Source: Bryoerythrophyllum caledonicum (taxonomy: Eukaryota > Streptophyta > Bryopsida > Pottiales > Pottiaceae). From it: 64,000 bases of DNA. Positions 7,234 through 63,151 of this stretch are shown in pieces (position 1 is the first letter of the stretch; every line of letters starts with the position of its first letter). The notes under the pieces are model-generated. The model did no database searches and had not been told where the DNA came from. It was given only the letters and a program-made list of their open reading frames with translations. The DNA lies in assembly GCA_963971425.1 (NCBI GenBank), contig OZ020525.1, positions 16,126,187-16,190,186 on the forward strand, read 5' to 3'. The position numbers were made by a program, and so were the translations under genes.

Positions 7234-7413
7234 ATGATTGCATGTGGATATGGTTGGTCTGTTATTTTTTGTTTATTGATTATATATCTCATTTGTGATG
7301 TCTTTTGGACTAGTTAGTATACTGTTATCTTGGTTGGTGATACAGTCCAGAGGTGGAGATTCATTCCTTTCTAAGAGTATTCTATTGATTTTCTTTGGGT
7401 TGGTTTCATATAG

Positions 7414-9660: not shown

Positions 9661-9681
9661 AGTATGGATTATCTTGTTGTT

Positions 9682-28015: not shown

Positions 28016-28127
28016 CATCACTAGGTGCAGTGAATTAAAAGTAATTGAGTTGGAGTTATTTGTAAAGTGTGGTTGTGATTGCTTCATGCACCACCTGGAG
28101 ATCAGGCAGGGGCCTCTCCCCCGAGGG

Positions 28128-29033: not shown

Positions 29034-31166
29034 TCACTGTCGTTGAGCTGGAAAAGGTCCGGGGGCGCCGTTCCATCCCTGCACGCATCGGAGAAGAGGG
29101 CGGATGAGCTTGCCCTCGGACATGGCCTCGAACACCTTCTGGATCTCGGTTCCGGGCGACACGGTCCGCAGCCCAGACAGGAGCTGCGTCCCGAGCTCGC
29201 CCCGCACGAATTCATACAATGGATACGTTCTGCAGCTGTGGATCCTGTTGGCGACGGAAGACAATCCCTTGTTGTCGTACGCTTCTCGGACGAGCGGCAC
29301 CACGATGCGCAGCCGCTCCTGCACCTCAGCTTCGAAGGCGGGGATCTGGGCGAACACAGAGCTGGAGGCGTCCTTGTTGACTAGCTTGAGCGCGTGGGAG
29401 ATGAGCGCCGCGCGCAGCTTCTCCATCAAGGGGTAGGACTCGCTGGCGGCGTCGTCGATGTAGGAGAAGACGGGCTGGCGCTCGACGACGAGCAGGAGGT
29501 CCTTCTCGCAGAAGCGCGACGGGAGGAGCGTGCCGTCCTTGCTCATGAACAGCGTCTTCTTGGCTGCTTGCGAGACGACCTGCTTCACGGCCGCCTGCAT
29601 GGTTTCCTCCACATGGCGGAGGTCGATGGCCTGGCAGAGCGCCACCAGGAACGACGAGCTCATGAGCTTGAGAATCTCCACGGCCTCCTCGGTTTTGCGC
29701 GCGGACACGAGCCCCAGGGAGTTCACGTCCTGGTTGTGCTGCTCGGCGCTCTGGACGTGCGTGGTGACCGGGTTGGCGAGGTAGTTGAGCTCGGAGAGAT
29801 ACGACGCCATCGCGATCTCGGCGCCCTTCATGCCGTAGTCGAGGCTGGGGTTGGGGCCCCCGGAGAGGTTGGAGGGCAAGCCGTTGTTGTAGTAGTCGTT
29901 CACGAGCTCGCTGAACTGCGCGAACATGAGCTTGCCGATGGCCGCCACGGCGAGCCGCAGGTTGTCCATGGAGACCCCGATGGGTGTCCCTTGGAAGTTG
30001 CCGCCGTGGAGCGCAATGCCTCGCGCGGCGTCGATGATGGGGTTGTCGTTCACGGAGTTGATCTCGCGCTCGATGGCGTGGGTCGCAGCGCGCACCACTT
30101 CGACCTGCGGCCCGAGCCACTGCGGGGACGTGCGCAGCGCGTACCGGTCCTGCTTCGGCTTCTTCAAAGGATCGGTCTCGTTCACCTTGGCGGCGGCCTT
30201 CATGAAATCGCTCCCATCCAAGAGCCACTCCATCACGGCCGCGGCCTCCATCTGCCCGGGGTGATGCTTCAGCTTGTGCGTCAACGGATCAGCGAACTCC
30301 GGCTTCCCCTGCATCACCTCGCAGAAGAGCGCGGACAGAACCTCGGCGAGGAGCGCGAGCAGATTCGCGTCGAAGCAGACGGTGGACGCCAGCGCAGACC
30401 CCACCGCGGTGCCGTTCACGAGCGCCAGCCCTTCCTTGGGCTGCAGCTCGAACGGCTTCTTGACGCCGGCGATGCGCAAGCCCTCCAGGGCGGACACCTC
30501 ACGTCCGTCCTCCGTGATGGCGACGGAGTTCGGGCGCGCGGTGAGCAGCCCGGCGATGTACGACAAGGGCACCAAGTCGCCGGACGCCGTCACGGTCCCG
30601 CGCAGCGGCAGCTTGGGCGTGACGTGCGCGTTCAGGAGCTTCTCCATGGCCGCGAGAATCTCCCACCGGATGCCCGAGTAGCCCTGCATCAGCGTGTTGG
30701 TGCGCACCAGCATTGCGGCGCGGGCGGTCTCGGCCGGCAGCGAGTGGCCCTTCACGAGCACGCCCGCGTTCAGGAAGCGGATGAGCTCGCGCTGGAGCTC
30801 CACGCCCTGCTGCGTGCGGCGGTGCGAGGTGGCGCCGAACCCCGTGGTGACGCCGTAGATGTCCCCGCCGCTCATGATCTTGCTGAGCACCCAGTTGGAC
30901 GACTCGTCCACCCTCGCCTTCGCATTGGCCGCGTCCAGCACGACCTGGACCTCCGGCCTGCGCGCTATGGCGGTCACTTGGCCCACGGTCAGGTTCACGC
31001 CCTCGATCGCGACCTCGTCGGAGTCGAAGTATGTCGCCACCATGCGCTTGATCTCGTCCAAATGGTTGCCTTCCATGGCCGCCGCTGTCTTGGCCCAGTT
31101 GAGGGGATCCGCGCCGACTGATCCATTGCAGAAAGCCGCCTCATCGAGCTTCATCTGTGGAGCCAT
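29034..31166 (-). CDS. PAL: Phenylalanine ammonia-lyase, copy 1
   Basis: An intronless 710-residue protein, within the normal plant PAL range. It removes ammonia from L-phenylalanine to give trans-cinnamate, the entry step of phenylpropanoid synthesis; plant PALs are cytosolic tetramers. The Ala194-Ser195-Gly196 triad (in [14 protein letters not shown]) forms the MIO electrophile. The catalytic tyrosine loop is YGVTTGFG (Tyr104). FLNAG at 131-135 has Phe where tyrosine-using enzymes have His, so phenylalanine is the expected substrate. NDNPI (373-377) and the [16 protein letters not shown] stretch (about 475-490) are conserved. The start at 31166 gives a short N-terminus ([12 protein letters not shown]) with no transit peptide. 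Codons are strongly GC-rich compared with the AT-rich surroundings. It differs from copy 2 at K236, P395, A535 and L625. Long opposite-strand frames across it are shadows of its GC bias. Confidence 0.97.
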
Positions 31167-31560
31167 AGAGCTCAGTGTGCTGCACGTTGTCCAATTAGAA
31201 ACCTCTCAGCCTGTGATGTCCCAGAATGCTGAATATTTATTTCTGGCTGAAGAGTTGATCTTAGAAATCTCTACAGAAACGAACGATTGAAGCACCTCGA
31301 CTGAGATCGATGAGGAGCTGGAATGTGAGACCAAGGACATATATGAGAATGAATGATCGAAGCGCCTCGACTGAGATGAGGAGTTGGAGTGTGAAGCCAA
31401 GGATTTACATGAGAATGGACACGGAGAGAAACGACGTGACTTTGAATTCCACGGCGACTGTGGGGTCAAATGGGGCTTGCATGAGGACGTCCGCGTTTCC
31501 TTTCATAATCTCGGGGCACACTTTTTGACCTCTCACTGAGAAAGTTCAGAAAAAGGGGGG
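31167..31560 (-). promoter_or_regulatory. PAL copy 1 promoter and leader, with internal ~68-bp duplication
   Basis: On the minus strand a TATA-like AATAAATATTC lies at 31242-31232, about 65-75 bases upstream of the ATG, implying a short leader. Farther upstream, two adjacent related blocks (about 31285-31354 and 31355-31420) share CCTCGACTGAGAT and AGTGTGA/AATGTGA-type sequence. A TGACGTACGT motif at about 31573 is a candidate bZIP site. All of this is repeated in front of copy 2. Function is inferred from position. Confidence 0.5.
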
Positions 31561-32009
31561 CCGTCAACGTGGTGACGTACGTAAAATTGTAGTAAACAGT
31601 TGAGGGCTTGAACCGCCAGTGCGTTGTTGGATGAGTTATTGACCTGGAGTCGTCTTCATTATGGGAGCCCAGTTGAAAATACAGGGTGACCTTTTCCGAG
31701 CTCGACTTTCAGATTCTCTGACTGTTCATGCTATTGGGGTGAAGAATGATTTGTGGTTTCCTTTCCTCGGCGCTGTTCATGGACGCGCTCTGCCGCGACG
31801 ACAAATCACGGAGCTCGCTGAGAGAATATTCGCCTGACCAGGCTGCCAATACAGCTCTCACCATCCCTGGAAAAGGATGAGACTCCACAGTTTCGCACCC
31901 TTTTCGTGGATCATATTGGACAAGACACCGATGGTGCGTGAAGTTTTCTGGGGTGATGCACTGATGTACAAGTGTGAAGTATTCCTGGCGTTCGGCATCG
32001 CTTTGGTAT

Positions 32010-37915: not shown

Positions 37916-37923
37916 CTTATAAA

Positions 37924-37953
37924 CACGCAATTAAGTAATTATGCACTTAGCCA
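37924..37953 (+). repeat. Left terminal inverted repeat
   Basis: Reads CACGCAATTAAG, then T, then AATTATGCACTT, then A, then GCCA. The right end, read in reverse complement, differs only at positions 13 (C) and 26 (G). A further AGTGCACT motif follows just inside on both sides. Confidence 0.85.
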
Positions 37954-38594
37954 AGTGCACTCGTTGTTGGTTGCAAACCGCAAGTTATTTGCTCATAACT
38001 TTTTTTTAAATCAAAATTAGGCAAAAGTTTAGTATGTTTTTTGTCAAAAAATTTTGGGTGTTTGTCGTGTCATACATTGGCATCTTCATGTTCATATCAG
38101 TAATATATTTTTTACATTCGCTACCTTTTTTTAGAAAATATATGATTTCTAATCTAATTTGCAAATCCTGCTACAAAATTATAATCATGTGCCCAAAGAG
38201 ATTATAAATGTCTTATGAGTTATTATAGGATTTTAGAGTACTGCACTTCAAATACAATGTATAAGAGATACAAAAATATATATGCAATTTCCTAAGATAG
38301 TGTAAAATACCTCACTGTATTTTATGATGCAAAAACATACATAATCAAGCAATTCCACACTATTGTTGAGGAATTCTAAAATCAAACATATCATATGGAC
38401 CACCCAATATATAAATATATACCACCCACCGAACGATACACATCTCAAACTGTATTATACTAACACTTGCCACCTAAATTGCGTGCATGCTCTACTATAG
38501 TATATAGCTCCAAGGCTCAGAGTTCATCTTCTGGTGCAACGACTCCCTCCACGTGTCCAATGGCGCTACCTACCATAGCGGACAGTTCATGATC

Positions 38595-41500
38595 CTACAC
38601 TGGACGATCTTTCACATCTTCGATGCCAATGGACGCACACTCAACATATCGGTAATTGCCAGGAACACCCTCCCGCGTATGCCTTACCCTATCATCATTG
38701 TAGAAAAAGCCATCCTCTTTATTGAAGGACATCTCTCGCTCTGATGAGAAGGCCCCCTGAAATGCAATGATGTCCTCGGATACGCTAGATCTTGGAACGG
38801 AAGGCAAACCTAGTCCGGTATCACTCTGAGTACCTCCGAACGTCTCTCGTGTCTCTGATATAGGCTCTGATTGAGAAGGCATCGAAGGCTGTGGAATCCT
38901 CCTTTGCACCGAAAAAAATTCCAATGAATCAAATTCTTCTTTCTCCATCTCCAGCCTAGGACCATCAAATGTACGCCCCCCTCCTGCCCTTGCCGCCAAA
39001 CTAACATCTACTACACCGGTATCTTGCATCCTCTCTGTAGGTATTGCAGATGTCTCCCCTGAAGTATCTCCCACCGCCCGCTGCGTTGATGGAATCCTCT
39101 CTCTTGGAGGAGACTGGTTCACTCCATCTTCATCGGCGTCTGAACTACTGCGAGATGAGAAATCTTCAGTGGTACCTAAACGTGGCAATCTCTCGTGTAA
39201 ACCACCTCCATCCTCATTGTCGTCTTCAATCCTCACTCCACCAACCGCCTCTTCGGTCTCAGATACGATGTTGCAACCAGTACTTGTTCCACCAGTCTTG
39301 ACCAACAGTTGTCCTTGGAAATTGTCAGACAACTCTCTGTACAGGAATGAAGCTCTGTCTGTACAATTTTCAATGATGAAAACCTCAGATCCCTAGAAAT
39401 CTCCTTCAACGATTGTGGGAATGGCCGTAGATATGTTACGCGCCACTAAAGCCCAACCACGGGGCAAGTATGAGCCCACTAGTCTTGTCAGCTCTGATGA
39501 AGATCTCTCAAGTGAATCAACTTCAGAGGGTTGGTGTGCCTCACTCCAGTGATCCAAGAAAACAAGTGGAAGTGGAACATCTCCAGAAACATAGTTCGGG
39601 CCAGGAGAGGTACCCACATGGTGCTGCATACAAATCACAACATCGCCAATCGGTTGTACTATTTGCTCCAGACACCCATTCTCTGTAAAATCAAGAGCAT
39701 AGGGATTAACCGAGTTTAAATCAAATGCCTAACATCCACGTCGCATAGTACATCCCTCTGGAAGCTTCACCTTCGTGAAAAACTCTTCGTTGGTATACAC
39801 GGCGGCTGGTAACAAGAAAATGACGTTCCATCGTTCAATATTTGCCATCCATAATGTCAGTTGTGCAAAAATTGCGGATATTTGGGCGTCTCCCCAATGA
39901 CCATCTCCATGCCTCCCACTGCCACGTCGACAATCAATCATCCACAAACATGGTTTCCCCAACTCTATGTAGTCGGTGCGGAATAACCCTCTTCTACACA
40001 GAACCGGAAGAATCTTTTATGTGTCGCTCTGGTCTGGCCTCTTGACTTCCATCTGCCATTCCCAATTAGCAGTAGCTTGTCCTCCCACATCCACGGACAG
40101 TCCAATGTATCCACGCCCCCCTGCTGCAATGTCACCATAATGAAACCTGATGGAAGAGGGGATGAGGTAGCCTATGTCTTCCAGTTTAGACACCTTCCCT
40201 CGCACATGAGTAATCCAAGTTTTTTTCGAGGTAGCATTCAAAAGCTTCCCAAACGTATCAAGTTGTGCGTTACTCCTCGGAAAATACTTCCCTATACGGA
40301 TACGAAAGAACTCCTCCATGGAATCAGGTGTACTTTCCTTGTTCTCCACCATCAACCAACGGATGGAATTCATCACAGCTTCTCGTCTCTGATATCGGTC
40401 AACCACACCACCAATCATACGAGGATGTGGATTCTTGTCTTTTACACCGTCGAAGTAATATGTTTGACGTGGTCTTACTCTATCCTCCCCCACCGGCTTC
40501 GCTGCTGCAGACTTTGACAACCGAAGATAATATGGATTCGGAACCCTACCTAATGGCCTCAACCAATTCTGGGTCATCTCCTTTCTTGTTGGTCGTACGT
40601 CCACATTTGGATCCAGCTCTTTCTTCCTCGCCATGGCCTTCCACTTGTCCTCTTGCTTCTTGCTGTAAAAGAGAATGTCATCTTCGTAGTCCTTGCATAC
40701 TTGAATGATAGCTTCGAAGCAGTCATTGCTCGGATTCCATGCATGATTGGTCAGATCTTCCATGTTTTTGGCCAACCTCTTCACCGTGACAACTCCATCC
40801 CCCTTGGGCAATTTATGCACTACACTTGCCGCACTCACCAAAGCAACAGCCCTCCGTGCATCGTCCGCACGTAGTGTGCTATCACGCCTCCCGTATAGAT
40901 CCCAAATCTGACGGAGCTTCCTCAAATCCTCCTCCATGATAGAATATGATTGTCTCTGGAACTCCGCCACGTTGATCCGCGCAGATTTCTCAATGTAAAA
41001 ACGACGATCATCATACATCACAAAAGAGGCCTCCCGCCGCTCGAACATGTCCAGGTACTCATTTAAAGGCATAGTACCATCTCTCCACTGCTGCTATGCA
41101 AATTTACAAGCTGCTACTATGTGTTGCCCATCCACGAGTTTCCAAATGATACGATCTTGAAGCCAAGAATATTGGGATTCCATGGCACCCTGTGCAGAAG
41201 CTCTTCCGTGTGCAATGAACATGCGCTCAAACTCTCGTGCGGTTGCTACCAACGGAAATGGCAATTCCTGCTTCTCAACGACACCATCATTGGAGGTAGT
41301 ATCCACGATGTATCTGATTGGTCGAAGTACCAATCTACTCACCCGAGTCGCGGCTTCAGGGTCTCTTAAGCGGTTAAATACTTTTTTGACCCTCTTCTGT
41401 AATAAAACCCGGTGGTTCGTTTCCGGATTCTCCACAGAGATAATGCAGTCTATGTGTGCCTAAAATACAAAATTCCCCACACTGATCCTTTTGCAATCTC

Positions 41501-42481
41501 CTCCGTTGTCGGCACTGGTGCTTTTAAATACATTGAAGTTGGAACATCCCGTGGTATCTCTGCATTGTCTTCAAAATCCTCTGGTAGACTATCTGATAGG
41601 TTGTGAAATGTTTCTTCTTCCGGCGCCATGGCTGACAAATCAGCTAAATCTCCCGGTGTAGATGCAGATGCTCTACGATGACCATCAGACATCCCGAGCG
41701 CCGACCTAGGAACCCTGCCACCCGATCTTACACTTCTCCCAATCAACCTCCTCCCGCTTGGATCCAAACCTGAGGGGCCTTCTGTTGAACGAAAAGCTAC
41801 ATCACTCTCAACGCGTCGTGGCCTCTTCGTAGGACGTCTTCTCGGTAACGGGGGATCAGATAATGTTTGTACCTCAGAAGTTGTGCTAAGGTGTTGGGCT
41901 CCACTTCCACTCTCTCCCTTCAGTGGTCGCCAATTCAATTGCAATGGCTGAGCAAGAATTCGATACACTTCTGTTTCTTCTGGTTCCGTTGGTGGGGCTC
42001 GAGTTGTCGCACGTGATGGGTCCCTCTCATATAATGCCTCATATCTAATATGTTCCTCCATAATCTTCTTAGCCTTCAGTACCATCTCCGGTGATAACGC
42101 TAAACAGGCTAAGACATTATTGTGTCTAGCAGTACGTACCGCAAGAGAGATGTTCAACCAAAACGTCTGCAATGATTTGAGAAACTTCATTTCACCTGGA
42201 TTTTGAAGAAGATTCAAAGGGACAGGTGCAAGAAGCAACTTCTTCGAAAGAGAAGTCTTCAACTCCGATTGATCTGGATCCATTGCGCAAGTTACGTAAA
42301 CCATATCATCACGTCGAAGAGTTATTGCCTGGATTTTGCCAAAACTCTTCCCCAACGCCGATGAACGCTTCCCCAGCTCAAAGGGATAATCCGTCACCCA
42401 CAAGAAGGCGCTCGACTCATCTACTTCCGCGATCCACGAGCCGTGGCTCTCCCACATTCTATCAATTTTTGGTGGTGCCAT
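38595..42481 (-). pseudogene. Large unrecognised element-encoded protein (left gene), decayed
   Basis: From ATG at 42481 (MAPPKIDRMWESHGSW) a frame stays open to 41450. A frameshift near 41440 leads to a second frame that continues to 38595, broken only by in-frame stops at 41094 (TAG), 40017 (TAA), 39729 (TAG) and 39393 (TAG). The full length is about 1,295 codons without introns. The N-terminal part has a basic nuclear-localisation-like run (PRRRPTKRPRR). The middle has charged helical segments (EEDLRKLRQIWDLYGRR; YYFDGVKDKNPHPRMIGG). Around 39.94 kb it reads LWMIDCRRGSGRHGDGHWGD, then a hydrophobic IERWNVIFLLPAAVY; the order loosely recalls adenine methyltransferases with a D-x-P-Y/W motif, but the proline is absent, so I do not assign that function. 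The C-terminal 240 codons are Ser/Asp/Glu-rich. Composition and the long shared frame support a true former gene. Confidence 0.6.
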
Positions 42482-42552
42482 AACGCTACGCTCAAAAAAC
42501 CTGTATATCATTATAAAATGATAGTCTTTATTAGTATGGAATATGAACTTTT

Positions 42553-43235
42553 GAACCTCCATTCATTGCACAATTTTATTGAATATGCTACACCCTTTGT
42601 CCACTTCTAAAAACTTTTGCACTACACAAGATATAAATCCAATACCATCGTGTTAAGCATGTTGTCAGTTCTTTGGTTAAATAGCATACTAATCCAAGTC
42701 AATTATTTTCGCACATTGTCACACATTTTCAGCCACGGTACCAAAACATCTTCTACCTTTCCATATAAAACTTTGAGATCTTCGTATGATTCACTTTTGA
42801 TTTTTCCTACGGCATTATGTGATGTTAAGCTTCTTATTGACCATTTGGATTCTCAATTAATACAATATAAAGGTCACAAAAAAATATTAGGTGAATTGTG
42901 AATTATTGAACGTGCACTGATTGCACAATGTTTTTGAACATGCTACACTCCTCCGCTACGTCCAAAAATTGGAATATAGGAATAAACATCATGCTTAACA
43001 TTATGAAAATTAATTGAGACCTTTTAAAGCGCAAAAATTGGACACCAACTGATGTCAAAGTTTGCTAATCCAGTAAACGCAGTGAAGAAAATGAACCCTT
43101 TTCTCTACTTCAAACACTATAATCTTTCAATCCGTGCGGTCAAAGTTTATGAAATTTTTTGAGTATCTTACTTAATAAGTCATAATTGAGATCCTACGGT
43201 TTAAACTACAATTTGTTTTTTTATTTTTACTTCCT
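42553..43235 (+). repeat. Two partial TTAA-family copies at the left gene start
   Basis: Segments at about 42553-42670 and 42895-43235 both carry the GAATATGCTACACCC / GAACATGCTACACTCC core and neighbouring phrases (ATCATGCTTAACA, CTTTCAATCCGTG) of the element at 14.26 kb, in the same orientation. Neither has both ends. Confidence 0.6.
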
Positions 43236-43295
43236 TATTCATTGCACTAAAACGAGCAATTTTAACGAGTACTATGTCTTTAGAAATTCTTTCAT

Positions 43296-43456
43296 ACCTT
43301 GGTATCGAGTATCAATCAGGGTATTGGGTATCAACCAATATATTAAATATCAACCAGGGTATTGGGTATGAATCAGAGTATTGGGTATCAACCAAGACAT
43401 TGTTGTTCAAGTGGTATTGGGTATCAACCAATGTACTGGGTATCAACCAAGACATT
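43296..43456. repeat. Degenerate GGGTATCAACCA minisatellite
   Basis: Variants of TTGGGTATCAACCA recur about every 16-30 bases. Similar units appear again at 43.92-44.02 kb embedded in CCCGGGTATC phrases, and at 46.98-47.04 kb on the other side of the CCGG-rich block. Confidence 0.75.
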
Positions 43457-44328
43457 ATGGATGTTGTGGGAGTCTAAAACTCCCACTTGGTCGCCCCTAC
43501 CAAAAAAATTAGTTAAAATAGGGTTTTTAGTATTAGTTAACTAGAAAAATAGTTAGTATTGTGTGAAATTAGATTAGATAGCGAATAGAGAAAATAGGGA
43601 AATGCTTAAGTAGTTAATTAGGTTTATAGTGGTGATAAAACCAGGTCTTAAAATCACTAATTTAAGTCCCGGGAAACAATTTCAAAAGAGTCCCGGGAGA
43701 TATCCCGGGACGTAAGTCTAAAATCACCACTTAAATCTAAATTAACTAGTTGAGTTTAGAAGGTAGTTAGAAGTAGTTGAATTCTTCTAGATGCTAATTC
43801 TTGTTTGAATTAGTAGTAGTGGTAGAGAAAAGAAAAGAAAAGACAAAAAAGAAAAAGATAAAAGAAAATGAAAAAGAAAAGAAAAAATTCCAAAAATTAA
43901 AATAAAAAAAATAAAAAATACATACCCGGGTATCAACCCGGGTATGAACTAGCCCGGGTACCAACCCAGGTATGGGATGATACCCGGGTACTCGGATATC
44001 ACCCGGGCAGCAGCCCGGGTATCTCCAGCCGTCATGGTCGGCCTCTCTCTCCCCGAAATTTCACCTGTCTTTTCCAGAAACTTTTTCCCCCCTCTAGAAC
44101 TCTTCTTTCCTCCCCTTCCTTCTCTAAAAATCTCCCCCCCTCAAATTTTCTCCTCTATCTCCCTATCTAGTTCTCTCTCTCTCATAGGTTCTTTCTCTCT
44201 CTCTCTATTTTGCCTTTTTGGAGTTGGGGTTTGAAGAAGTAGTCAAAGGAGTGAAGAAGAGGTGGTGCAACAAGGAGGAAGAAGAAGGAGAGGAGGCTTT
44301 TCAAGTGTCTTGGAGGTGCGCAGACTAG

Positions 44329-44535
44329 GGTTTGGTGGAAGAGATGCGCGAGCTACGGTTTGGTGGAAGAGGTGCGCGAGCTACGGTTTGGTGGAAGAGG
44401 TGCGCGAGCTACGGTTTGGTGGAAGAGGTGCGCGAGCTATGGTTTGGTGGATGAGGTGTGTGGACTAGGGTTTGGTGGAAGAGGTGCACGAGCTAGGGTT
44501 TGGTGGAAGAGGTGCGCGAGCTAGGGTTTGGTGGA
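44329..44535 (+). repeat. 28-bp tandem repeat, seven units plus a partial
   Basis: Each unit begins GGTTTGGTGGAAGAGGTG and ends CGAGCTAC/T/G. The fifth unit is the most diverged (GGATGAGGTGTGTGGACTAG). Because 28 is not a multiple of three, the array rotates through all reading frames, which argues against a coding role. Confidence 0.95.
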
Positions 44536-47367
44536 GATTTTAGGGTTTTGTGGAAGTGGAGGAGATTTATGGCCGAAGCGAGAAGATAAAAAAGACAAAG
44601 GAAGGAGGTTGCGGGTGCAACAACAAAGGTGACTCTTGCCCATGTTGGGTTTATTTTGTTTGTGCAAAATTCTTGTTTGTGAGTTTTTTCCTCTCTTGTC
44701 TACCGGGGTGACTCCCCCGGTAACATCCTCCCCGGTCTAGAGAAAAAGTCCCCCCGGGGACTTCATCGAGACCTCATTGTGTTGTTTACATGTGTAGTTG
44801 TTGTCGATTGTCCTAGCCTTGTGGCAAGTTGTTATCTTGAGTTGTCTCCCTCCTCTTATCATTTTAGGTCTTGCCCATAATTCCTATCTTTTTTCCAGTC
44901 TTCCCGGTCAACCGGGAAGAACCTCTTTTTAAGTCCTTGTCTCCAAAGTCCTCTCCTCGTTATCATTATATGTGACCTTGTGTTGTTAGTATGTTGCTAG
45001 ATGTGTGAGACACCCATATCCACATACTCTAGTAAAGTATTCCGAAGTTGTCTACCGGCTGACCGGTAGATTTGTGTTTCTGGGCCGGACCGGAGTTTGT
45101 GACAAGTTAATAGGGAGATTAGTGGAAGTACAGGCATTTTGAGGAATCTGTCTGCCCGGGACTACATGGCTCTCCGGTGAGTCGGGTGGATTTCCCATCT
45201 CCAAGGAGTGGGACTTGAAGGTCTATGAGAGAAAAAGAAGCCTCCCGGTAATTTCTACCGGGAACGAACCGGTAGACCTCCCTTCCTCAACCCCGGAGTC
45301 CTTGGTGGAGTCCTCTGCGGCCATACTAATCGAGTTTAAAGAGACTCCGTATGTATCTATAGATACACCCGACCTTCCGGTGGATACCGCCAATCCACCG
45401 GTAGACCTCCCGGTTGAGACATCCGGCCTCCCGGGGGATTCTCTTGACCATGTTGGTACTTCCAGACGTGGTGACAATCTCTATACGTCTCAACCGGAAG
45501 AGTCTTCCGGTTGAGTCTTCGTTATATGTTATGTGTTGGTTTACCTCACCGGTTTGTGAGATGTTGTTTTAAGTTGCTAGAATTACACACTAGGGTGAGA
45601 GTAGTGATGTCGATGGGGCCCCATTGCGCACCCGGTCACTACCACTTGAGTGGTTTCTCCGGCTACTTATTTTTGTTAGGAAAAGGTTCACCGGTCCCGG
45701 GACCGCCGGACCGGGAGTCTTCCGGTCTACCGGTCTTCCAGTTTACCAGTCTACCGGTAATCCGCCGGTGACTAGGCTACCCTTGATTTTAGGATCTAGA
45801 TGCCGTTTTGTCTTTTAGTGGAGCTACTTTTGGAGGGTAGCTATTGACTTTAGTGCACCTCCTAGATGCCATTTCGTCCTTTTGCGGTCTAGTTTTGGAG
45901 CGTAGCTATTGACTTTAGTGCACTCTTTAGATGCCATTTCCACCTTTTGGGGATCTAGTTTTGGAGGATAGCTAGTGGCCTTTGTTTACTTAAAGGCCTT
46001 GGGCTCTTGTGTTATGTACTCTTCTCTTTGTTGATCTCCTCGTGTCTTGCCTTCATTGCTCGTGTCTAGAGTCTTTGTTGAGCTTGTGTGAGTAGATCGG
46101 GAGAGGGTTGAGTCCTCCTAGTGTGTCTTTGCTAGGTGTGCAAGATTGTGACTTATTGTGTGTTAAGTGATTGAGTGTGAGTAGAGACATCCCGAGGGGC
46201 TAGGATATCCGGGTTAGATAGGTAGAGTGAGGTCCGGGACTTGTGCTCTAGACTTTTCACCGGTGGGACCGGGAAGAGTTGCTTTAGCGGATGGGATCCG
46301 GGAAGCCCACGGCTATTTATGATAGCCTCCTTTAAGTGGGAAGTGTTCGGATTGGTGGGGAGTAGGGGGTGACATCCCCCTTCTCTCGGTACACCGGGAG
46401 ACATCCCGGCTAAGCCTGAGTCCGGAAAATACCGGGATTATTACCCTTGCAGTGGATGAGTTCCGACGATCCCCGTGGAAGGTTGTTTTGCTCATATGAT
46501 TTGCTTAGTACTAACTTGTTGTGAGTCTTGTATTTTCTTGCTTTGATTCATTGGGTGTGGTTGTAGTTGGAACCCGGGCTTGCGTGACCGGTTTACCGAG
46601 ACAAGTTCCCGGTAGATTGTGAAGACCGGTAAACCGGCTGCGACCTTTATAACTCTTTCAAGGTGTAGGGTTAGATTGTGGATATTGTGGCCTCTGGACT
46701 GCGAGAACGGAGGGCAGTGACTTTCCGGGCACTGTAAAAACTTACCGGAAATCTACTCTGATGCTCAACAGAGTTTAACTGAAACACATGTGGTTACTTG
46801 TTACCGGTTACTAAGGTACCGGGGAAGCCATCCTCCGGGATGTGCCGAGGTATTATGTGTGGATTATTGTTAAGATTTAAAGAGTTTGATGCACGATAAA
46901 AATCCCTAGAAACAATCTGGTAAGGTGGGCTTGCTTAAGGTTAATTTCGGTTAATTTTGAGAATAACAAACCACTAGACTACGACAGATGTCAATCAGGG
47001 TATTGATACAACCTGGGTATCAACACCGGGTATCAACAAGGTTTAGGATTTGCTAGTCTTACATGGGGTATGCGCGCGCACACCCCTGCCGGCATACCCC
47101 TGCGGCCGTGAAGGAGAGGGTCCGTGTGAGAGCTCCGATTTGGTTTAGAGTGAGAGGAGATAGGGTTTTACGTGAGCGAGAGAGAGGCTGTGTGGGCTGT
47201 GTGAGAAGGGAGGGTTTTATGTGTGAGGAGGCGAGGATTTTCTGTGAGGGAGGTTTTTTTTTGAGTTGAGTAGGGAGAGGAGGGTTTTCTGTGCGGTAGG
47301 ATTTTCGGTGATGGACCGTTGAGGGTCTAGGAAAAAGGATCTGGGAGGGAGAGGGGGGAGGATCAGT

Positions 47368-47482
47368 GAGAGAAAGGAGGGAGGGTCAACGAGAGAGAGG
47401 AGGGAGGGTCAGCGAGAGAGAGGAGGGAGGGTCAGCGAGAGAGAGGAGGGAGGGTCAGCGAGAGAGAGGAGGGAGGGTCGGC
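47368..47482 (+). repeat. 23-bp GAGA-type tandem repeat, five units
   Basis: Five consecutive units of 23 bp combine GAGAGAGAGGAGGGAGGG with TCAGC or TCGGC. Purine-rich on the plus strand. The deduced protein frame is an artefact of the repeat. Confidence 0.95.
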
Positions 47483-49026
47483 GAGAGGAGGGAGAGGAGG
47501 GAGGGTTGGGGAGGGAGAGGCGGGTCGGGAGGTTTACCACGGTGTGTTCAATGTGCAGTATTGGTGGCGAAGCGAGAGCGACGACCTGTGGGTCGAGAGC
47601 GCTTGCCAAAGACACGCGTAGACAGCCTCCTCACGCGCGCAACCAACCTCCTCACACGCGCAGATACGCGCAGACAGTCTCACGCACGCACACACCCTCC
47701 AGCAGCCTTCTGCGCGTCGAGATCTCCAATAGTAGCCTGCGAGCCTTATGCGACGTGTGCGCATTCGAGCCTTGTGCGTCGTGAGGGTTGTCCAACAACG
47801 TTGTTGATGCCGTCGAGCTGTTGGAGGGTGTGCGCGCGCACTCCCATGGTCGGTCTCCTGTAGGTCGGTGATTAGGGTCGGCGGTTTAGGATATTCGGTC
47901 GGCGGCTAGGGTTACAGGTTCGGTTCCGACTAGGATTTTTGGTTGGAAGTAGTTGGCCAGGAGGGCGAAGGCGCATGTGCGGCACGTAGCTCCACACCCG
48001 CTCAACTACGATCCTGCTTGATCGACGCTGCTGCTGAAGAAGTTCGCTTGACAAGTCAGTATGCTGGAGTGAAGCAATCAAGGTGGAGTCCTTGGCAGCA
48101 AACCCCACTTGAGCAAGTTTTGCTGCCCTTGCGAGTGTCCCCTCTGAAGAAGGTGAACCCTCTTCCCTCCTCTTTTGTTGCTTATATTTGTTGACAAAAA
48201 ACTTCAGCTCATCAACAGAGTTATTAGAAATCTCTTATCAATAGAGTTATCAGAAGCATAAGTCTCTTATTCAAACTTCAGGAGACTTTATAAATAACTC
48301 TAGCATGTGAAGATGTTCTATGGACTTGTGTTGAATGCTAGCGAATGCTCTAGCATGCACAGGTGCAACGAACGTTGTTGTAGCATTGTTCGGGAGTTTG
48401 TGGTGTTTGATCCTTACCAGAAGGAAGAAGAAGAGGAGCAACAACCGGAACTGCAGGCACTGGTCCGGGTCTCCGAGGAAGTGTCCTCCGCCTTCGCGGC
48501 TTTGCAAGCGAAGAAGTGGGATGCGCCTGTAGATGTGCTCGGTGCTCTGAGTAGAGCGCTCTGGGGAACCTTGTTGAATGACTGTCGCATGTGCTTCCTT
48601 CGCTCAGTGTGGTCTACGTTCCGTTCATGGATTCGTTGCTGAAAAAGCAAACGGAACAGATGTGAATGAGGTGCAGTACTTTATGAACACAATTTTAAAT
48701 AGGATTTCAACGGAGGCTTGCTGAAAAAGATGATCCAGTGCTTGCGTTTGTAGGCCCTCCAATCTAGGGTTGCATTTCTAGGAATCTTGTCGAGTTGTAA
48801 CTACGAGATAAGTTCCATTTTCCCTTGCATATGCAGTACAGTACTGGAGTGAATTGCTTCCACAGGTCTCGAGAGTACCATATCACTTTAAGGTAAGCGC
48901 CCCCCCAAACTAAAAACTAAAAAAAAAAACCAACAGGTTAAGGAATGTGGATATATGTTAGTTTTGGACTTCGTTGCTTGCTTACAAAATCTTAGAGGTA
49001 AGCTAAGGTGACCCAAAATCATTCTC

Positions 49027-49959
49027 TTAACCCCTAAAGGACCACGACCTATTTTGCTCTAAAACCAGTCCAAAACTGCCACTGTCAAAAAGATACATGA
49101 AAATCACATTTTCATGTGAATTTTTAATTTTCATCCGTAAGATCTTAAAATAGAATTCCATATAAACATGCCATCAAATTTTGGTTGCAATCCACCGCAC
49201 GGATTGATAGATTTTAGTGTTTAAAGTCAAAACAATGGTTCATTTTTATCCCTGCGTTGAGTAGATCAGCTGACTTTGACTTCATTTTTATTCAAATTTT
49301 TGCATTGTACAAGGCCTAAATCTCTTACCATTGTCTTAAGCATGATGTTATTTCCCAACACAACAATTTTTAGAGGTAAAAAAGTGGTGTAGCATATTCA
49401 AAACAAGTGTGCAAGGAGTGGAGGTTCAAAAATTGCCATTTCACATTTTATTTTTTTGTGAACTACGTATGTATTCAAATGATAATCCAAACGGTCAATA
49501 AGAAGTTTTTCACCACATGTTGTTGTTGAAAAAATAAAAAGTGAAAAATATGAAGATCTCTAGGTTTTATGTAGAAAAGATGAAGTTTTTTTCCCCCGTT
49601 GCCCGACAATGTGTGAAAATGTTTGACTTGGAATAAAATGCCTTTTTACACTAAAGACAAGATTTTATTTTGAAATTTTTTAAATAAGGAAATATTCTTT
49701 ATATGTGTGAAAAATCTCAATGTCAATAGAAACTGTTGTCAAAAATTTTGGAGGTGCCCGAAGTCCCACTTTTGGCTTTAAGTGGTACTTACTTTCAAAC
49801 CACAAATCCAAAAATATATAAATAAATATCTCCACAAAGCTCTTATCAGATCCTATCTTGAAAGAAAAATTCAATTAAAAAGGATTTTTTTTTGAATTGT
49901 AGGTACATGCCCAAAATCCAAAATGACCCCGGGGGGACGTTTGGTCCTTAAGGGGTTAA
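49027..49959. mobile_element. TTAA-flanked non-autonomous element (piggyBac-like MITE), copy B
   Basis: TTAA stands at 49027-49030 and 49956-49959. The left end continues CCCCTAAAGGACCA; the reverse complement of the right end continues CCCCTTAAGGACCA. At 933 bp it is the best-preserved family member here, with nearly perfect inverted ends apart from one extra T. Its interior matches the reverse complement of copy A. It contains no coding frame and lies inside the larger element, so it inserted later. Confidence 0.75.
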
Positions 49960-50029
49960 GTCAAATGGGGACCAAAATCACATTGTATGTCAAAAGGGAC
50001 TATGCAATTGATACAAAATTTATAAGCGA

Positions 50030-50740
50030 GAAAACCACGCGCGTTGTGAACTATGCTTTAGAATATGTGGCACTTGTTTTGAATATGCTATACCCCTTAT
50101 CTACCTCTGGAAATTGGTGTATTCGGAACTAACATCATGCTCAACACGATGGTTTAAAAGATTTAGAGCTTCTGTAGTGCAAAGATTTTATACCAAGTGA
50201 AGTCAAGTCTGTTGATCCACTCTACGCAGGGAACAAAATCAACCATTTTCTTGACTTCAGATAATAGAATCTTTCAATCCGTGTGGTCAAAGTGTATGAA
50301 TTTTTTTGAGTATGTTACTTTGTAAGTTTTGATGGAGATCCTACGGTCAAAAAGATAAATATAAGGTTTAATTTCCTACCTTACCCATTACACTATAATC
50401 AACAATTTTGAAGTGTTTTTGGTGTTAAATGGTCATGGGCTTTTAGGGCTAAAGGAACATATACACAAAGTTTCCTAGAATTTGACTGCACGGATTGAAA
50501 ATTTATAGTTTTTATAGTAGACAACATTGGTTCATTTTTTCCCTAGATTGAGTCGATTACTGGAATTTCAATCTACTTGGTTTCAAAAGTTTGCGTTACA
50601 TAGGGTCTAGATTCATTACCATTATGTCAAGAATGATATTAGTTCTTTATACACCAATATTTAGGGATGGAGAAGAGGTGTAGCATATTCAAAGACACTT
50701 GCAAGAAGTTGACGCTCTACAAATGTTAAATTTTTTCATT
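50030..50740. repeat. Inverted duplication of a TTAA-element half
   Basis: The left arm (about 50030-50450) carries GAATATGCTATACCCC and CTTTCAATCCGTG. The right arm (about 50450-50740) carries the same sequence inverted (CACGGATTGAAAATTTATAG, GGTGTAGCATATTC). They meet near 50445-50460 at GGGCTTTTAGGGCTAAAGG, the eroded element end. The arms are clearly related but not identical; the right arm lacks about 130 bp next to the junction. Confidence 0.7.
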
Positions 50741-50907
50741 TCAAATAATTTTATCAGAAGGTTCAATATCATCATCATAAAATGAACATTAAATATGTGA
50801 TCAGAAACATATCTTCTATCAGATAGATGGTGCTTTAGACGCTAACAATTTGTACATGTATTTTGACTAATGTGCAACCATAATGTTTTTTTTTTTCAAT
50901 AGTGATA

Positions 50908-53900
50908 ATGGAGAGCTGTACAATTCAGGCTCCTTTGATACGGCCACACATCCAAAGGGATAATATGGTTTCCAATAGCTCTGTGGGGGCCCGATTAGTA
51001 CGAGCAGCACGTGCAAGGCAAATTTAACAAAGATCTGTTGAGGTCATGACATCTGAATTGGAAAGGGCAGTAGAATTGTTCTCTGAAAGAGAGGATGTGG
51101 TGGGCTTAGCAAATAGGGAGCATGCATTCAAAAGCGACATGGAATTGAATGGATCGAAGTTGTTTCCGTTCGAGGTGGCGGTGCATATCACTAGGGTAGA
51201 TGATGCATTGCATTGGACCGGAGAGATTGTAGGAGAACGCCTTGGCATGTGTGTGGGCTTGATCATTCGTTGGCACCGGTCTTTGCTACGTATATTGGCT
51301 GTAGAACCTAATATTCCAAGTGCCCATAATGACCTTGGATCACAAGCACCGCCTACAGGAATGATGGCTCGAGAATTTTTTTTTCCGAGTTCATCAACAG
51401 AACAGGATCCACCGAGGAGGACTTGACGCAGTAGCGAAGCTTCAAACGCCATAGATGAAAATTCGCCATTTTCCCATTCTACACCTTCAAACATTCAGGA
51501 TTTGCCCCATGTAGATGGATTTGCTTATGTTAGACTAGCACGTCGTCCCTATTCTATGCAAAATAGGAGAAAGAGAGATTCAGTAGAGCCATCTTTGATA
51601 GAAGCTGCACCATCTAAGGTATCCCTTAGAAGCGTGCAAATTGCAATGGCACAAGGAGGATGCAAACGCAATTGTTTGAGGGACGTTCCAGCAAGGTATC
51701 TATTGGACATGCGATATAATGCATGGGCCAATGAGTTTTCAGTACGAAGTATATGGATGAGACACATGCTGGTTTCTTTTTATACAAGGACGGAAGGACC
51801 TCGTCGAGACAAGTTTGTAACAAAGTTAGATGAGAAAGAAGTTTGCAATGCTTGCTACGCTCTTGGGGTTGGATATTCACAGAGGCGCTTTAAGCAATTG
51901 AAGAAGGAGTGTTTAATATATGGAAGAGTGACATCGATTCACGGCAATACCATTTCAGATCCGATTAGAGAGAGTACTAGAATGTCTGCGACAGAGGCTT
52001 GTTTTAAATCGTTTGTTGATGAAGCTAGTTATCCTCAACCTCATCGCTGTATTCGCCGTAAGAGTGACAACGAAGTAGTGCCTCTTATTCTCCTTCCTAT
52101 GAATACTGCCAAATTTGATATATTCAATTACGTGAACGAGGAGGTCAAGAGAATTTGTAATGGGGAAACCATTTCTATGAGTTCGTTCCGGAGGATGTGG
52201 CGCATCAAGTATCCCCACGTTCAGGTACTTCCATTCTCGAGATTCTCAAAGTGTTATCATTGTTGGGAGTATAAATGTGCCATAGAGGGAACCACCAATG
52301 CGGATGCAAGGATAAAGATAAAGGAGTTGTTTATGTTGCATCTGCGCAACCAGATGGAAGAACGTAGGCATTATTGGATATTCAAGAGGTCGTGTTATAT
52401 TAGCCCAGAGTTGTACATGTGCATCATAGTGGATGGCATGGACCTAAACACAACCATGGTACCCAGGATGCGTCAGACTGTGAAGAACATTGAACACCGG
52501 TTTGTGAAGACCCACCTGTACGGAGCTCTTGTACATGGGATCGGTTTATTTTGCGACGTGTGGTTTGGGGCTCACCACAAACATGATAGCAACCAAGTCG
52601 TGAGTACATTGTTGTACGTGATAGGAGATGTGTTGCGGAGGAAGGGATTTTTGCCACCAACACTACGAATCCAGGCGGACAACTACACACGGGAGAACAA
52701 AAACATTTATATGTTTGCTCTATGTGCTACAGTGGTGGGATTGGGGTTTTTTCAGGAGGTAGAGCTATCTTTTCTCATAATGGACCATACACACAAAGAT
52801 ATTGATCAACGTTTCAGTTGTATATCAAATACGTTGAAGAGGTCGGACGTGGACTTGTTGAAGGAAATGATGAGTCTTATTGAACAAGGAACATCTCTCA
52901 CAGAGGCATTTGTTAGCGCCCGGCTGCTAGAGAATGTATGGGATTGGAAATAATTCATAACTCCTCATTTACTGACAGGTCAGGATTCATTAGTGGGCAT
53001 AACATTTCCGCACCATATGCGATTCTATATGGACAATCGAGAAGGGGCTCGTGAGGTTCGAGTACAACACAAACATTATTGCAAGGATCCATGGGGACCG
53101 GAGGCAAGGACAAAAATGTTGAGGTCGTTGTCAAGTAGGGATGAACGATCATCGTTTGCGGAAGTATTTGCAGCGGACGAACGGGAGTTGAAGGCATTGG
53201 ATGACTTCATTGTATATAAACAAAGGTGCATCCAAAAATTGCAGCATGAGGACAAGAATCGTGAGGCAAAAGTAGAGGCTAAAGGATTGATACTCTATAT
53301 AACAGAATTTCCACACAAAGACCGTAGCAATGAGCATCGTTCCTCACCGTTTTGGCCATCAGAGTTCTTTAACACCGGACCTACAGAGAGTGCATCTTTG
53401 GATGTAATGGATGGTGCAAGTGAAGAAAATCACGAGATAGATGTCGTAGAGCAGGTAGTGGCGATGCTTCCAAATGCCGAGGCTCGAGGATACTTTGGTC
53501 CTCGTAGAAGAAGACCCTCTAATCAAGCTGTGCGCAGGGCACAACGAACACAGCGCAACTATGTTGAGGAACGAGCCGAAGAAGGAGCAATGAATGAAGG
53601 TAACCACGACCCATTTCCACCATTTAATCCACAATCTGATATCTGTTGTGGACAATTTGTAGCCTTGAGTGTTGATCAAACAGAAATAGAAGGCGGTGTA
53701 CCATTCTATGTGGGGAAAGTGATTGAGGAAGGAAAAAACCGATGGAGACTTAAGATAAAGGTTTGTTGGTATTGGCCCAGCATCCAAAGGGGGATTGTTG
53801 ATGGACATGGGTCTTCTGCACAGCGGTATGCAAATTGCATGGACTCAATCTGGGAGCCATCTGGGGAGAGCCATAGTTGGGTAGAAAAAGATGCATGCAT

Positions 53901-54099
53901 TTTTTCATGGGTAGACTCTTTGGAAAGAACCATGTTAGGGGCCAGCGGGTGGAGAAAACGCAATGTATTTGGAGTGCAGGTTGAAAGCAGGATTCGCATT
54001 ATTCAATCGGCAAAGGCTCACATACTACAATATATTGCAATGCAAACCGAAGCTATCGATGACGACCGTTTGCAAGCAGCCCTAAATTCTATGGAGTAG
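50908..54099 (+). pseudogene. DDE-like transposase candidate (right gene), three in-frame stops
   Basis: A single frame from ATG 50908 to TAG 54099 (1,063 codons) contains three internal stops, TAA 51025, TGA 51424 and TAA 52951, and no frameshift. Numbering from 51502: an N-terminal Cys pair (GGCKRNCL, 54/58), a CYHC knuckle (251-254) followed by a basic helical region ending HLRNQMEERRHYW, then VDGMD (Asp 311/314), IQADNYTRENKN (Asp 393) and HTHKDIDQRFS (Asp 433/435). Spacing and hydrophobic strands before each acid suggest an RNase H-like DDE/D fold. The combination CxxC, DN-x-x-RENKN and HTH-x-DIDQ is one I remember from uncharacterised eukaryotic proteins classed as DUF7869; the name is from memory. 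After the third stop the frame continues through ITFPHHMRFYMD and VPFYVGKVIEEGKNRW to the end. Its place beside the right terminal repeat makes it the likely mobiliser. Confidence 0.65.
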
Positions 54100-54639
54100 A
54101 TAGTGTGCCTTTTTGAGAGTATACTAGTTGTGTATGGTAATTGATATATAGTGTATGTGTAAGAGTAGTATATTCTGAGGGTGATGTAAGACGTTATGTC
54201 ATTAATCCTTTAGAGTAAAGTTGTGTTTACTATTGGTGCTAAGTCCAATTGTAGAAGCATCTATATTTAGTTTTCACCATTGTATGCATTATGTACTACG
54301 TAGAATATCTATTAATCAACTGCCAACCCTTGCATAAAGTATGTTTTTTTGTAATTACGCCTATTTATATACTACAATCCTTCAAATCTATCTTTGAAAT
54401 ATTGTGAAACTATATTAAATACACATTTATCTAGTATTAACGAGGGGCCACCAAAAATTAGTTGAAAATGCCAAAAAATCGCTTCCAATATGAACAACCA
54501 TGATTGTACGTAATATTGTTGCAGAAGCTCAATTTTTTTTCCTTTAAAAAACATTTTTTTTCTTTGATTTTTTTTTTTTTTTTCAATTTTGCCACTATTG
54601 TTCGCAATGGCCGCCGTTGTACCCAAGTGCACTTTTAAA

Positions 54640-54669
54640 TGGCCAAGTGCATAATTGCTTAATTGCGTG
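54640..54669 (-). repeat. Right terminal inverted repeat
   Basis: Ends AATTGCTTAATTGCGTG on the plus strand; its reverse complement matches the left terminal repeat at 28 of 30 positions. Followed at once by TTTATAAA, the candidate target duplication. Confidence 0.85.
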
Positions 54670-54677
54670 TTTATAAA

Positions 54678-60312: not shown

Positions 60313-61018
60313 GTAATTGACTTGGGGTTATTTGTAAAGTGTGGTTGCGATTGCTTCATGCACCACCTGGAGATCAGGCAGGGGCCTCTCCCCCGAGGGA
60401 GGGAGCCTGGATAGCATCAGAAGTATACAATACCACCAAACGGAGCGATTATGCCCGCGCCACGAGTGCAATCAAGCTCATGCGAGACAACGTCAGTCCC
60501 CGAACCACTGCGTCCCCGAATCACGAGACAATACATGAGCGTGCGAGAGGAGCATCGGGAATCATGCACCACTATCGGTGACATGAATAATATGTAAGGA
60601 TTCAGCCGACAACTTAGTGCGTGACCACCTCATTGGTCTACAGATTCTTTCATCTACTTTGGCACGTGAACTAGCGGGCTGAACCTACATGGCATAACCA
60701 CTAGTAAGTTCTGATCTTCAATAGCCACCTTCATTTACACCACGGGCATCTAGACACATTTCATCAAACAACATGGTACTCAAGAGGCTGTTGTGAAGCA
60801 AATCTGTGAACAAGTTTCGTCGTGTTCAAAAAATAATATACAATGCAGAATGAGCTTGCCTAATGCGGGAAGAATCCGTCATCTCGCAACCAGAAGTTGA
60901 TCTCCGAGATGTACCATGCTAAGATGAGATCAGCTGAGATGGATTAATTTTACAGGACTGCCTGCCTCAAAGAATAGTTTCTACTTGTACCGTGATCAAA
61001 ATTGGGGAAGTGAAATTT

Positions 61019-63151
61019 TCACTGTCGTTGAGCTGGAAAAGGTCCGGGGGCGCCGTTCCATCCCTGCACGCATCGGAGAAGAGGGCGGATGAGCTTGCCC
61101 TCGGACATGGCCTCGAACACCTTCTGGATCTCGGTTCCGGGCGACACGGTCCGCAGCCCAGACAGGAGCTGCGTCCCGAGCTCGCCCCGCACGAATTCAT
61201 ACAATGGATACGTTCTGCAGCTGTGGATCCTGTTGGCGACGGAAGACAATCCCTTGTTGTCGTACGCTTCCCGGACGATCGGCACCACGATGCGCAGCCG
61301 CTCCTGCACCTCAGCTTCGAAGGCGGGGATCTGGGCGAACACAGAGCTGGAGGCGTCCTTGTTGACTAGCTTGAGCGCGTGGGAGATGAGCGCCGCGCGC
61401 AGCTTCTCCATCAAGGGGTAGGACTCGCTGGCGGCGTCGTCGATGTAGGAGAAGACGGGCTGGCGCTCGACGACGAGCAGGAGGTCCTTCTCGCAGAAGC
61501 GCGACGGGAGGAGCGTGCCGTCCTTGCTCATGAACAGCGTCTTCTTGACTGCTTGCGAGACGACCTGCTTCACGGCCGCCTGCATGGTTTCCTCCACATG
61601 GCGGAGGTCGATGGCCTGGCAGAGCGCCACCAGGAACGACGAGCTCATGAGCTTGAGAATCTCCACGGCCTCCTCGGTTTTGCGCGCGGACACGAGCCCC
61701 AGGGAGTTCACGTCCTGGTTGTGCTGCTCGGCGCTCTGGACGTGCGTGGTGACCGGGTTGGCGAGGTAGTTGAGCTCGGAGAGATACGACGCCATCGCGA
61801 TCTCGGCGCCCTTCATGCCGTAGTCGAGGCTGGGGTTGGGGCCCCCGGAGAGGTTGGAGGGCAAGCCGTTGTTGTAGTAGTCGTTCACGAGCTCGCTGAA
61901 CTGCGCAAACATGAGCTTGCCGATGGCCGCCACGGCGAGCCGCAGGTTGTCCATGGAGACCCCGATGGATGTCCCTTGGAAGTTGCCGCCGTGGAGCGCA
62001 ATGCCTCGCGCGGCGTCGATGATGGGGTTGTCGTTCACGGAGTTGATCTCGCGCTCGATGGCGTGGGTGGCAGCGCGCACCACTTCGACCTGCGGCCCGA
62101 GCCACTGCGGGGACGTGCGCAGCGCGTACCGGTCCTGCTTCGGCTTCTTCAAAGGATCGGTCTCGTTCACCTTGGCGGCGGCCTTCATGAAATCGCTCCC
62201 ATCCAAGAGCCACTCCATCACGGCCGCGGCCTCCATCTGCCCGGGGTGATGCTTCAGCTTGTGCGTCAACGGATCAGCGAACTCCGGCTTCCCCTGCATC
62301 ACCTCGCAGAAGAGCGCGGACAGAACCTCGGCGAGGAGCGCGAGCAGATTCGCGTCGAAGCAGACGGTGGACGCCAGCGCAGACCCCACCGCGGTGCCGT
62401 TCACGAGCGCCAGCCCTTCCTTGGGCTGCAGCTCGAACGGCTTCTCGACGCCGGCGATGCGCAAGCCCTCCAGGGCGGACACCTCACGTCCGTCCTCCGT
62501 GATGGCGACGGAGTTCGGGCGCGCGGTGAGCAGCCCGGCGATGTACGACAAGGGCACCAAGTCGCCGGACGCCGTCACGGTCCCGCGCAGCGGCAGCTTG
62601 GGCGTGACGTGCGCGTTCAGGAGCTTCTCCATGGCCGCGAGAATCTCCCACCGGATGCCCGAGTAGCCCTGCATCAGCGTGTTGGTGCGCACCAGCATTG
62701 CGGCGCGGGCGGTCTCGGCCGGCAGCGAGTGGCCCTTCACGAGCACGCCCGCGTTCAGGAAGCGGATGAGCTCGCGCTGGAGCTCCACGCCCTGCTGCGT
62801 GCGGCGGTGCGAGGTGGCGCCGAACCCCGTGGTGACGCCGTAGATGTCCCCGCCGCTCATGATCTTGCTGAGCACCCAGTTGGACGACTCGTCCACCCTC
62901 GCCTTCGCATTGGCCGCGTCCAGCACGACCTGGACCTCCGGCCTGCGCGCTATGGCGGTCACTTGGCCCACGGTCAGGTTCACGCCCTCGATCGCGACCT
63001 CGTCGGAGTCGAAGTATGTCGCCACCATGCGCTTGATCTCGTCCAAATGGTTGCCTTCCATGGCCGCCGCTGTCTTGGCCCAGTTGAGGGGATCCGCGCC
63101 GACTGATCCATTGCAGAAAGCCGCCTCATCGAGCTTCATCTGTGGAGCCAT
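61019..63151 (-). CDS. PAL: Phenylalanine ammonia-lyase, copy 2
   Basis: An intact, intronless 710-residue PAL. Relative to copy 1 it has E236, S395, V535 and I625; every other residue agrees. The MIO triad (194-196), Tyr104 and the FLNAG selectivity motif (131-135) are unchanged, so it should also deaminate phenylalanine. Of the four changes, 395 (HGGNFQGTS against GTP) lies next to the conserved HGGNFQG segment near the active site; the others are conservative or on less conserved stretches (K to E at 236 reverses charge). Identical promoter architecture suggests overlapping expression. Very recent duplication or gene conversion would explain the near identity. Confidence 0.97.

Follow-up and report, generated by a model that had tools for sequence, protein, structure and literature searches.

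A large two-gene DNA transposon of the moss Bryoerythrophyllum caledonicum, most likely a Sola1-like element

Introduction

Among the seven superfamilies of inverted-repeat transposons that have been named in plants, Sola is the one that combines 4-bp target-site duplications with a DDD transposase (PMC10741241). Its members are mostly 2–9 kb long, with some exceeding 15 kb, they occur in the moss Physcomitrella (PMC10741241; PMC9033089, table), and their inverted ends range from 11 to 1124 bp (PMC10741241). One of them, Sola1-1_Ec32 of the alga Ectocarpus, reaches 21.5 kb and carries, opposite the transposase strand, an accessory gene of 1,104 amino acids with ParB-like and DNA-methyltransferase domains; the giant Ectocarpus families mostly carry nested insertions and often have broken transposase genes (PMC12477816). 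The element described here lies in a stretch of 64,000 nucleotides (the window, positions 16,126,187–16,190,186 of contig OZ020525.1, assembly GCA_963971425.1) from the moss Bryoerythrophyllum caledonicum. It holds two long genes that run outward from a variable centre, and it is read as a large cut-and-paste DNA transposon, most likely a Sola1-like member of the Sola superfamily, with a probability of about 0.66.

Boundaries and layout of the element

The inverted arms initially delimited in the window (37917–37953 and 54640–54676) are 95% complementary, and the exact limits come from loci elsewhere in the genome. The bases AA stand ahead of the CACGC-like sequence at 29 of 30 left-end loci (L029 is altered there), and homology among the 30 ends at one common point; on the right, a T follows GCGTGT at all 30 right-end loci, counting the variants GCATGT in L039 and GCGTAT in L048. 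Given these common boundaries, the element is AACACGC...GCGTGTT, at 37922–54671, with inverted ends of 32 bp that match at 30 of 32 bases. A first-pass annotation, made from the window alone, had described a transposon of about 16.7 kb with inverted ends alike at 28 of their first 30 bases and two long intronless genes running outward, one for a DDE-like protein and one for a large unknown protein. All of this held, the length being 16,750 bp and the inverted ends extending two bases further; what shifted is the exact boundary, now at 37922 and 54671. From left to right, the features are the following.

37918–37921, no strand: left copy of the target-site duplication, TATA (4 bp, from the seven paired copies and the symmetric flanks)
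37922–37953, plus: left terminal inverted repeat, 32 bp, 30/32 against the right one (boundary common to copies at other sites)
38532–42481, minus: left gene, protein of about 1,320 amino acids, outward to the left end (tblastn of relatives P0070 and P0072, stop-to-stop frames)
42968–50690, no strand: variable centre, with tandem arrays and perhaps nested elements inside (BLAST comparison with the C12 copy)
50908–54099, plus: right gene, DUF7869 protein, putative DDD transposase, outward to the right end (tblastn, frame translation, Pfam PF25273)
54640–54671, minus: right terminal inverted repeat (inverted arms, right-end loci)
54672–54675, no strand: right copy of the target-site duplication, TATA (window flank)

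Copies in the genome

The 437-Mb genome was searched with 400 bp from each end, and only the best-matching ends were scored (the best 40 of 984 candidates on the left and the best 40 of 1,600 on the right), so the resulting copy number is a lower bound. The scored ends are 94–100% (left) and 96–100% (right) identical to the window, which is itself the 100%. Many copies are present, including short ones without most of one or both genes.

Both ends were read for seven copies, namely the window, C12 (the second full-length copy), C6, C15, C7, C8 and C11; C15, C11, C7 and C8 were chosen because their single-end loci showed internal deletions, which put the other end nearby. By coordinates, C6 spans about 12.6 kb, C8 9.8 kb, C7 8.9 kb, C15 6.2 kb and C11 5.5 kb. 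Gene content was compared for the four chosen copies (C6 is known by its span and ends): most of both genes is missing from C15, C11 and C7, and C8 retains the left gene but little of the right one. These short copies look like ordinary internal-deletion copies. No right end was present in any of 20 stretches of 1.5 kb placed where copies of 16–17.5 kb would end, which indicates that copy lengths vary; a fixed element length was rejected on this ground (0/20 partner ends at the expected distance). For the candidate pair L060/L107, the stretch read fell short of the left end. The right ends L050 and L051 share identical flanks, as do L057 and L058, and these copies appear to have been multiplied by segmental or tandem duplication and not by insertion.

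Further genomic copies with both ends, which the first-pass annotation had proposed to look for, were found in this way, seven copies being paired with the window included. Ends without both genes, which it had named as a possible refutation of its proposal, exist as well, and are to be expected because a family of this kind would be moved in trans.

Target-site duplication and insertion pattern

An exact 4-bp duplication flanks five of the seven paired copies (TATA in the window, C12 and C7, CATG in C6 and TTTT in C15). The background was estimated from all 754 combinations of 29 distinct left and 26 distinct right flanks (flanks were distinguished by 8 bp, and the window and C12, which are true pairs, are included), of which 18 match at 4 bp, 87 at three or more of the four positions and none at 8 bp. 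None of the seven pairs matches at 8 bp, and the 8-bp duplication originally proposed, CTTATAAA and TTTATAAA, is composed of the 4-bp TATA, the AA/TT of the inverted ends and neighbouring bases; it was rejected, given that the paired copies show 4 bp and the symmetry of the flanks is centred on 4 bp.

This symmetry is seen when 57 distinct flanks (29 left, 28 right) are read outward from the element: R, T and G prevail at positions 5, 6 and 7, with 0.44, 0.38 and 0.51 bits of information, as compared with at most 0.15 at the other positions from 1 to 20 and 0.114 at control positions 21–60. The RTG triplet occurs in 21 of the 57 flanks and at 75 of 2,109 control positions (binomial P = 2e-16, a value after the fact, as the triplet was chosen from counts on nearly the same flanks). 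The stronger point is that RTG appears mirror-wise on each side separately (8/29 left and 13/28 right flanks), and this weighs more than the P value. The insertion site is thus symmetric, CAY-NNNN-RTG, and the centre of its symmetry points to a 4-bp stagger without any need for paired ends.

The right gene: a DUF7869 protein

The right gene is whole in the C12 copy, where it forms an intact open reading frame of 1,063 amino acids. All 1,063 residues align with the window in a single frame by tblastn, at 89.3% identity and with three premature in-frame stops; frameshifts in the window gene were rejected, since tblastn gives one frame with in-frame stops only. DUF7869 (PF25273) is the one Pfam family that the protein matches above cut-off, with E = 4.7e-41 when the piece from the window is used, and the protein has 67 relatives in the public protein collection, with best local identities of 35–93%.

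When two pieces from the window are aligned with 28 of the 67 relatives (30 rows, numbered by relative P0003), four acids are conserved, counted over the rows with a letter at each position: D291 (25/26), D294 (26/26), D373 (20/23) and D413 (20/20). Next to the last of these, E412 is kept in no more than 15 of the 20 rows. Together, D291 or D294, D373 and D413 would form a putative catalytic DDD triad, in which 81 residues separate the first acid from the second and 39 the second from the third.

Over the last 1.3 kb of the right gene, 23 of 30 right-end loci align over more than 900 bp, and six of the 23 are open (the C12 reference, L032, included; L057 and L058 are duplicates), so most of these aligned copies are dead in the right gene. 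The 23 loci hold 584 synonymous and 701 non-synonymous codon changes relative to the C12 reference, that is, about 1.2 non-synonymous per synonymous change; roughly three would be expected without constraint. Such a ratio fits a gene that was probably under selection formerly and is now decaying in most copies.

Judged by eye, the C-terminal 250 amino acids contain a stretch (GQFVALSVD..FYVGKVIE..WYWP..WEPSGE) that resembles a small barrel of the chromatin-reader type; this part of the window protein has no Pfam match.

The left gene: a large partner protein

The left gene runs from 42481 to 38532 and would encode about 1,320 amino acids in some 4 kb. In the window copy the frame shifts near 41.47 kb and is interrupted by four or more in-frame stops (41094–41096, 40017–40019, 39393–39395 and 38595–38597), and the C12 copy is also broken, by a single in-frame stop and a shift to another frame. 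Ten relatives were found among 8,000 candidates scored, 36–66% identical and 584–1,488 amino acids long, and a profile search with the family returned eight of the same ten.

Domain libraries give the protein no name. Pfam returned nothing for the window pieces or for the relatives P0068 and P0069; on 13 members of the family alignment it gave six single-member matches at E = 0.1 or weaker, and on four segments of the protein a single one, to DNA_pol_alpha_N (E = 0.0017, below the curated cut-off). NCBIfam, run on two segments, proposed trigger factor for one of them at E = 0.12, and in PHROGs the relative P0079 matched a family of unknown function at E = 0.0018, the others being weaker. With two proteins of the family, tblastn against phages gave five matches to a tail-terminator gene at E = 3 for one and none for the other, and no viral contigs carry the window's transposase piece. 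Neither the left protein nor the CAY-NNNN-RTG pattern was found described in the searchable literature.

Some features of the left protein recall, by eye, the accessory protein of Sola1-1_Ec32. The stretch WEPVDGQHIVAAC was read as a ParB-like motif, and the tetrad DCRR (D851–R854 of P0070) is invariant in all eight aligned relatives. On this reading, DCRR would occupy the place where methyltransferases carry DPPY, and the DPFxGSGTT stretch, which binds S-adenosylmethionine, would be replaced by a different conserved stretch. A search of four segments by hmmscan yielded no ParB-like or N4/N6 methyltransferase match, and the hhalign probabilities against nine phage methyltransferases did not reach 1% with either the full-length protein or the candidate regions, nor exceed 2.4% in any sliding window. 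ParB_N was detected in two of the three phage methyltransferases scanned (in one below cut-off), and one more is annotated with it. As positive controls, E. coli YhdJ reached 99% and P1 ParB only 10%, which leaves the ParB half of this comparison weakly powered. It is doubtful that the left protein descends from a ParB-methyltransferase fusion whose methyltransferase has turned into a reader; if it did, giant transposons of plants would rely on a domesticated methyltransferase without catalytic activity, by which they recognise their own DNA or the way it is methylated.

Classification and alternative explanations

The element most likely belongs to, or lies close to, the Sola group, in which it is placed by published traits and not by comparison of transposases. 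A Sola1-like identity is favoured because of the 4-bp duplication (exact in five of seven pairs, with the flank symmetry centred on 4 bp), the putative DDD-type acids, the size of 16,750 bp with inverted ends of 32 bp (both within the published ranges), the presence of Sola1 in a moss and the opposite-strand accessory gene of Sola1-1_Ec32. The element thus resembles Sola and Sola1 in its duplication, its putative DDD-type acids, its inverted ends of tens of bases and its size above 15 kb (PMC10741241; PMC9033089), and differs in its symmetric CAY-NNNN-RTG target and in a second gene that matches nothing nameable. The closest architectural parallel that we found in print is Sola1-1_Ec32, which is likewise giant and carries its accessory gene opposite the transposase strand (PMC12477816). 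Sola2 elements with passenger Fanzor genes share AT-rich 4-bp duplications with it, and their terminal module is conserved from one family to another although the rest is unrelated (PMC3627910); in the moss element, by contrast, the variable part is the centre and not one end. No Fanzor gene was noticed in it, although no search was aimed at Fanzor. As regards Sola1 in Physcomitrella, one review was the only source found in the literature searched (PMC10741241), and the titles and opening lines of abstracts on Sola in mosses and ferns and on giant transposons contained nothing recognised as this element.

If this reading is correct, the DUF7869 protein would act as the transposase through an active site of the RNase-H type with a DDD triad, binding the inverted ends, cutting them and inserting them at target sites cut with a stagger of 4 bp, and the product of the opposite-strand left gene would be a dedicated accessory factor. 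The window copy, broken in both genes, could move only with proteins from other copies. DUF7869, whose function is not given in Pfam, would thereby gain a plausible role as a transposase, and CAY-NNNN-RTG with a 4-bp duplication is suggested as the target rule of the family. The element also shows that a plant harbours a giant DNA transposon in high copy number, whose second protein is large, well conserved and unnamed in the libraries searched. Since one copy with a whole right gene accompanies many broken ones, it can be tested directly whether the element excises and whether it requires the second protein.

Several observations weigh against this reading. The name Sola rests on traits that other groups could share, and bivalve Sola1 elements average only 5,445 bp (PMC10294476). 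The accessory protein of Sola1-1_Ec32 is of the ParB-methyltransferase type (PMC12477816), whereas the protein of about 1,320 amino acids has no significant match to such domains, the by-eye reading of both domains having found no support in hmmscan, PHROGs, sequences from the PDB or hhalign. With respect to the catalytic acids, D291 is replaced by N in one row and D373 in three, and a search of solved structures by sequence with the right protein gave one match, which is not significant (E = 0.77). A stop or frameshift interrupts the right gene in 17 of the 23 aligned loci. Regarding insertion, the duplication of C8 is inexact (3/4, TAAC/AAAC), C11 has a mutated left end and flanks that are unmatched in register and was counted as a miss, and no empty site was seen.

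The first of the alternatives is a separate superfamily, in which a DUF7869 transposase and an obligatory partner gene of about 4 kb (some 1,320 amino acids) would be unrelated to Sola and share with it the 4-bp stagger only. The left protein has no recognised relatives beyond its own family (the ten among 8,000 scored, eight of them by profile), DUF7869 bears the name of no transposase family in Pfam, and the accessory protein gave no sign, on testing, of the type found in Sola1-1_Ec32. DUF7869 also goes unmentioned in the literature searched, which is weak evidence, as most subscription papers lay outside its coverage. Against a separate superfamily stands the fit of the putative DDD-type acids, the 4-bp duplication, the size, the opposite-strand accessory gene and the occurrence in a moss with the published traits of Sola and Sola1, and we hold it to be possible but rather unlikely. 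The first-pass annotation had suggested that this may be an undescribed superfamily, which the analysis did not establish; Sola, which it had not considered, fits better than any other group compared here.

Other groups with duplications of 4 bp or nearly so, Kolobok, Ginger and Academ, are very unlikely candidates, for it is the duplication length alone that speaks for them. Kolobok, like piggyBac, targets TTAA, Ginger duplicates 4 bp and has an integrase-like protein, and Academ duplicates 3–4 bp. The exact duplications found are TATA, CATG and TTTT, which led us to reject Kolobok and piggyBac, and no integrase core or other Pfam family besides DUF7869 lies above cut-off. The remaining superfamilies with inverted ends and an RNase-H-type transposase (hAT, MULE, CACTA and PIF/Harbinger, to which piggyBac is added) differ from the element in the length or sequence of the duplication and in the protein family, and their exclusion at first pass agrees with the 4-bp duplication and with DUF7869 as the only Pfam family. 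Duplications are of 8 bp in hAT, a length at which 0/754 combinations and 0/7 pairs match, and of 3 bp in CACTA and PIF/Harbinger, of which no Pfam match was found either. MULE duplications measure 7–12 bp (PMC10741241), and there is no MULE match in Pfam.

The view that there is no transposon, and that an inverted repeat of segmental or chance origin encloses two host genes, has practically no chance of being right: both genes are indeed broken in the window copy, and the identical flanks of L050/L051 and L057/L058 mean that some copies were duplicated with their surroundings, but the same sharp ends stand in different flanks, with 4-bp duplications and a common target pattern.

The variable centre and neighbouring features

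The centres of the window and C12 copies are similar in length (about 7.7 kb, and 7.5–7.9 kb according to how a repeated stretch is assigned). In the comparison, which covered the C12 centre except where it reads N, BLAST finds in common between them only scattered copies of a dispersed repeat and one stretch of 35 bp. The dispersed repeat, of about 0.7 kb and 71–84% alike, occurs both inside and outside the element (14421–15143, 27841–28008, 42546–43265, 49051–49781, 50071–50347 and 50452–50709) and also in the flanks of other copies; several deletion junctions of the short copies adjoin it. The window centre contains two tandem arrays, at 44257–44563 (28-bp unit) and 47329–47512 (23-bp unit). 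By eye, repeats of the GGTATCAACC type border 3.7 kb of the centre on either side (43300–47055) and suggest a nested element, and GC-rich ends resembling GGTATGCGCGCGCACACCCC at 47060–47850 perhaps mark a second one.

Outside the transposon, the window carries two aromatic amino acid lyase genes (PAL-type, Pfam PF00221) at 29.0–31.2 and 61.0–63.2 kb. They lie within 28041–32009 and 60313–64000, about 32 kb apart and on opposite sides of the transposon, and are nearly identical (97–100% in the repeat blocks), which may reflect a recent tandem duplication or gene conversion. The minus strand of 2807–10542 holds an element resembling long interspersed nuclear elements, with a reverse transcriptase open reading frame (RVT_1, 6223–7272), and this stretch shows a very strong strand asymmetry, with a GC skew of up to +0.47 and an AT skew of about -0.25.

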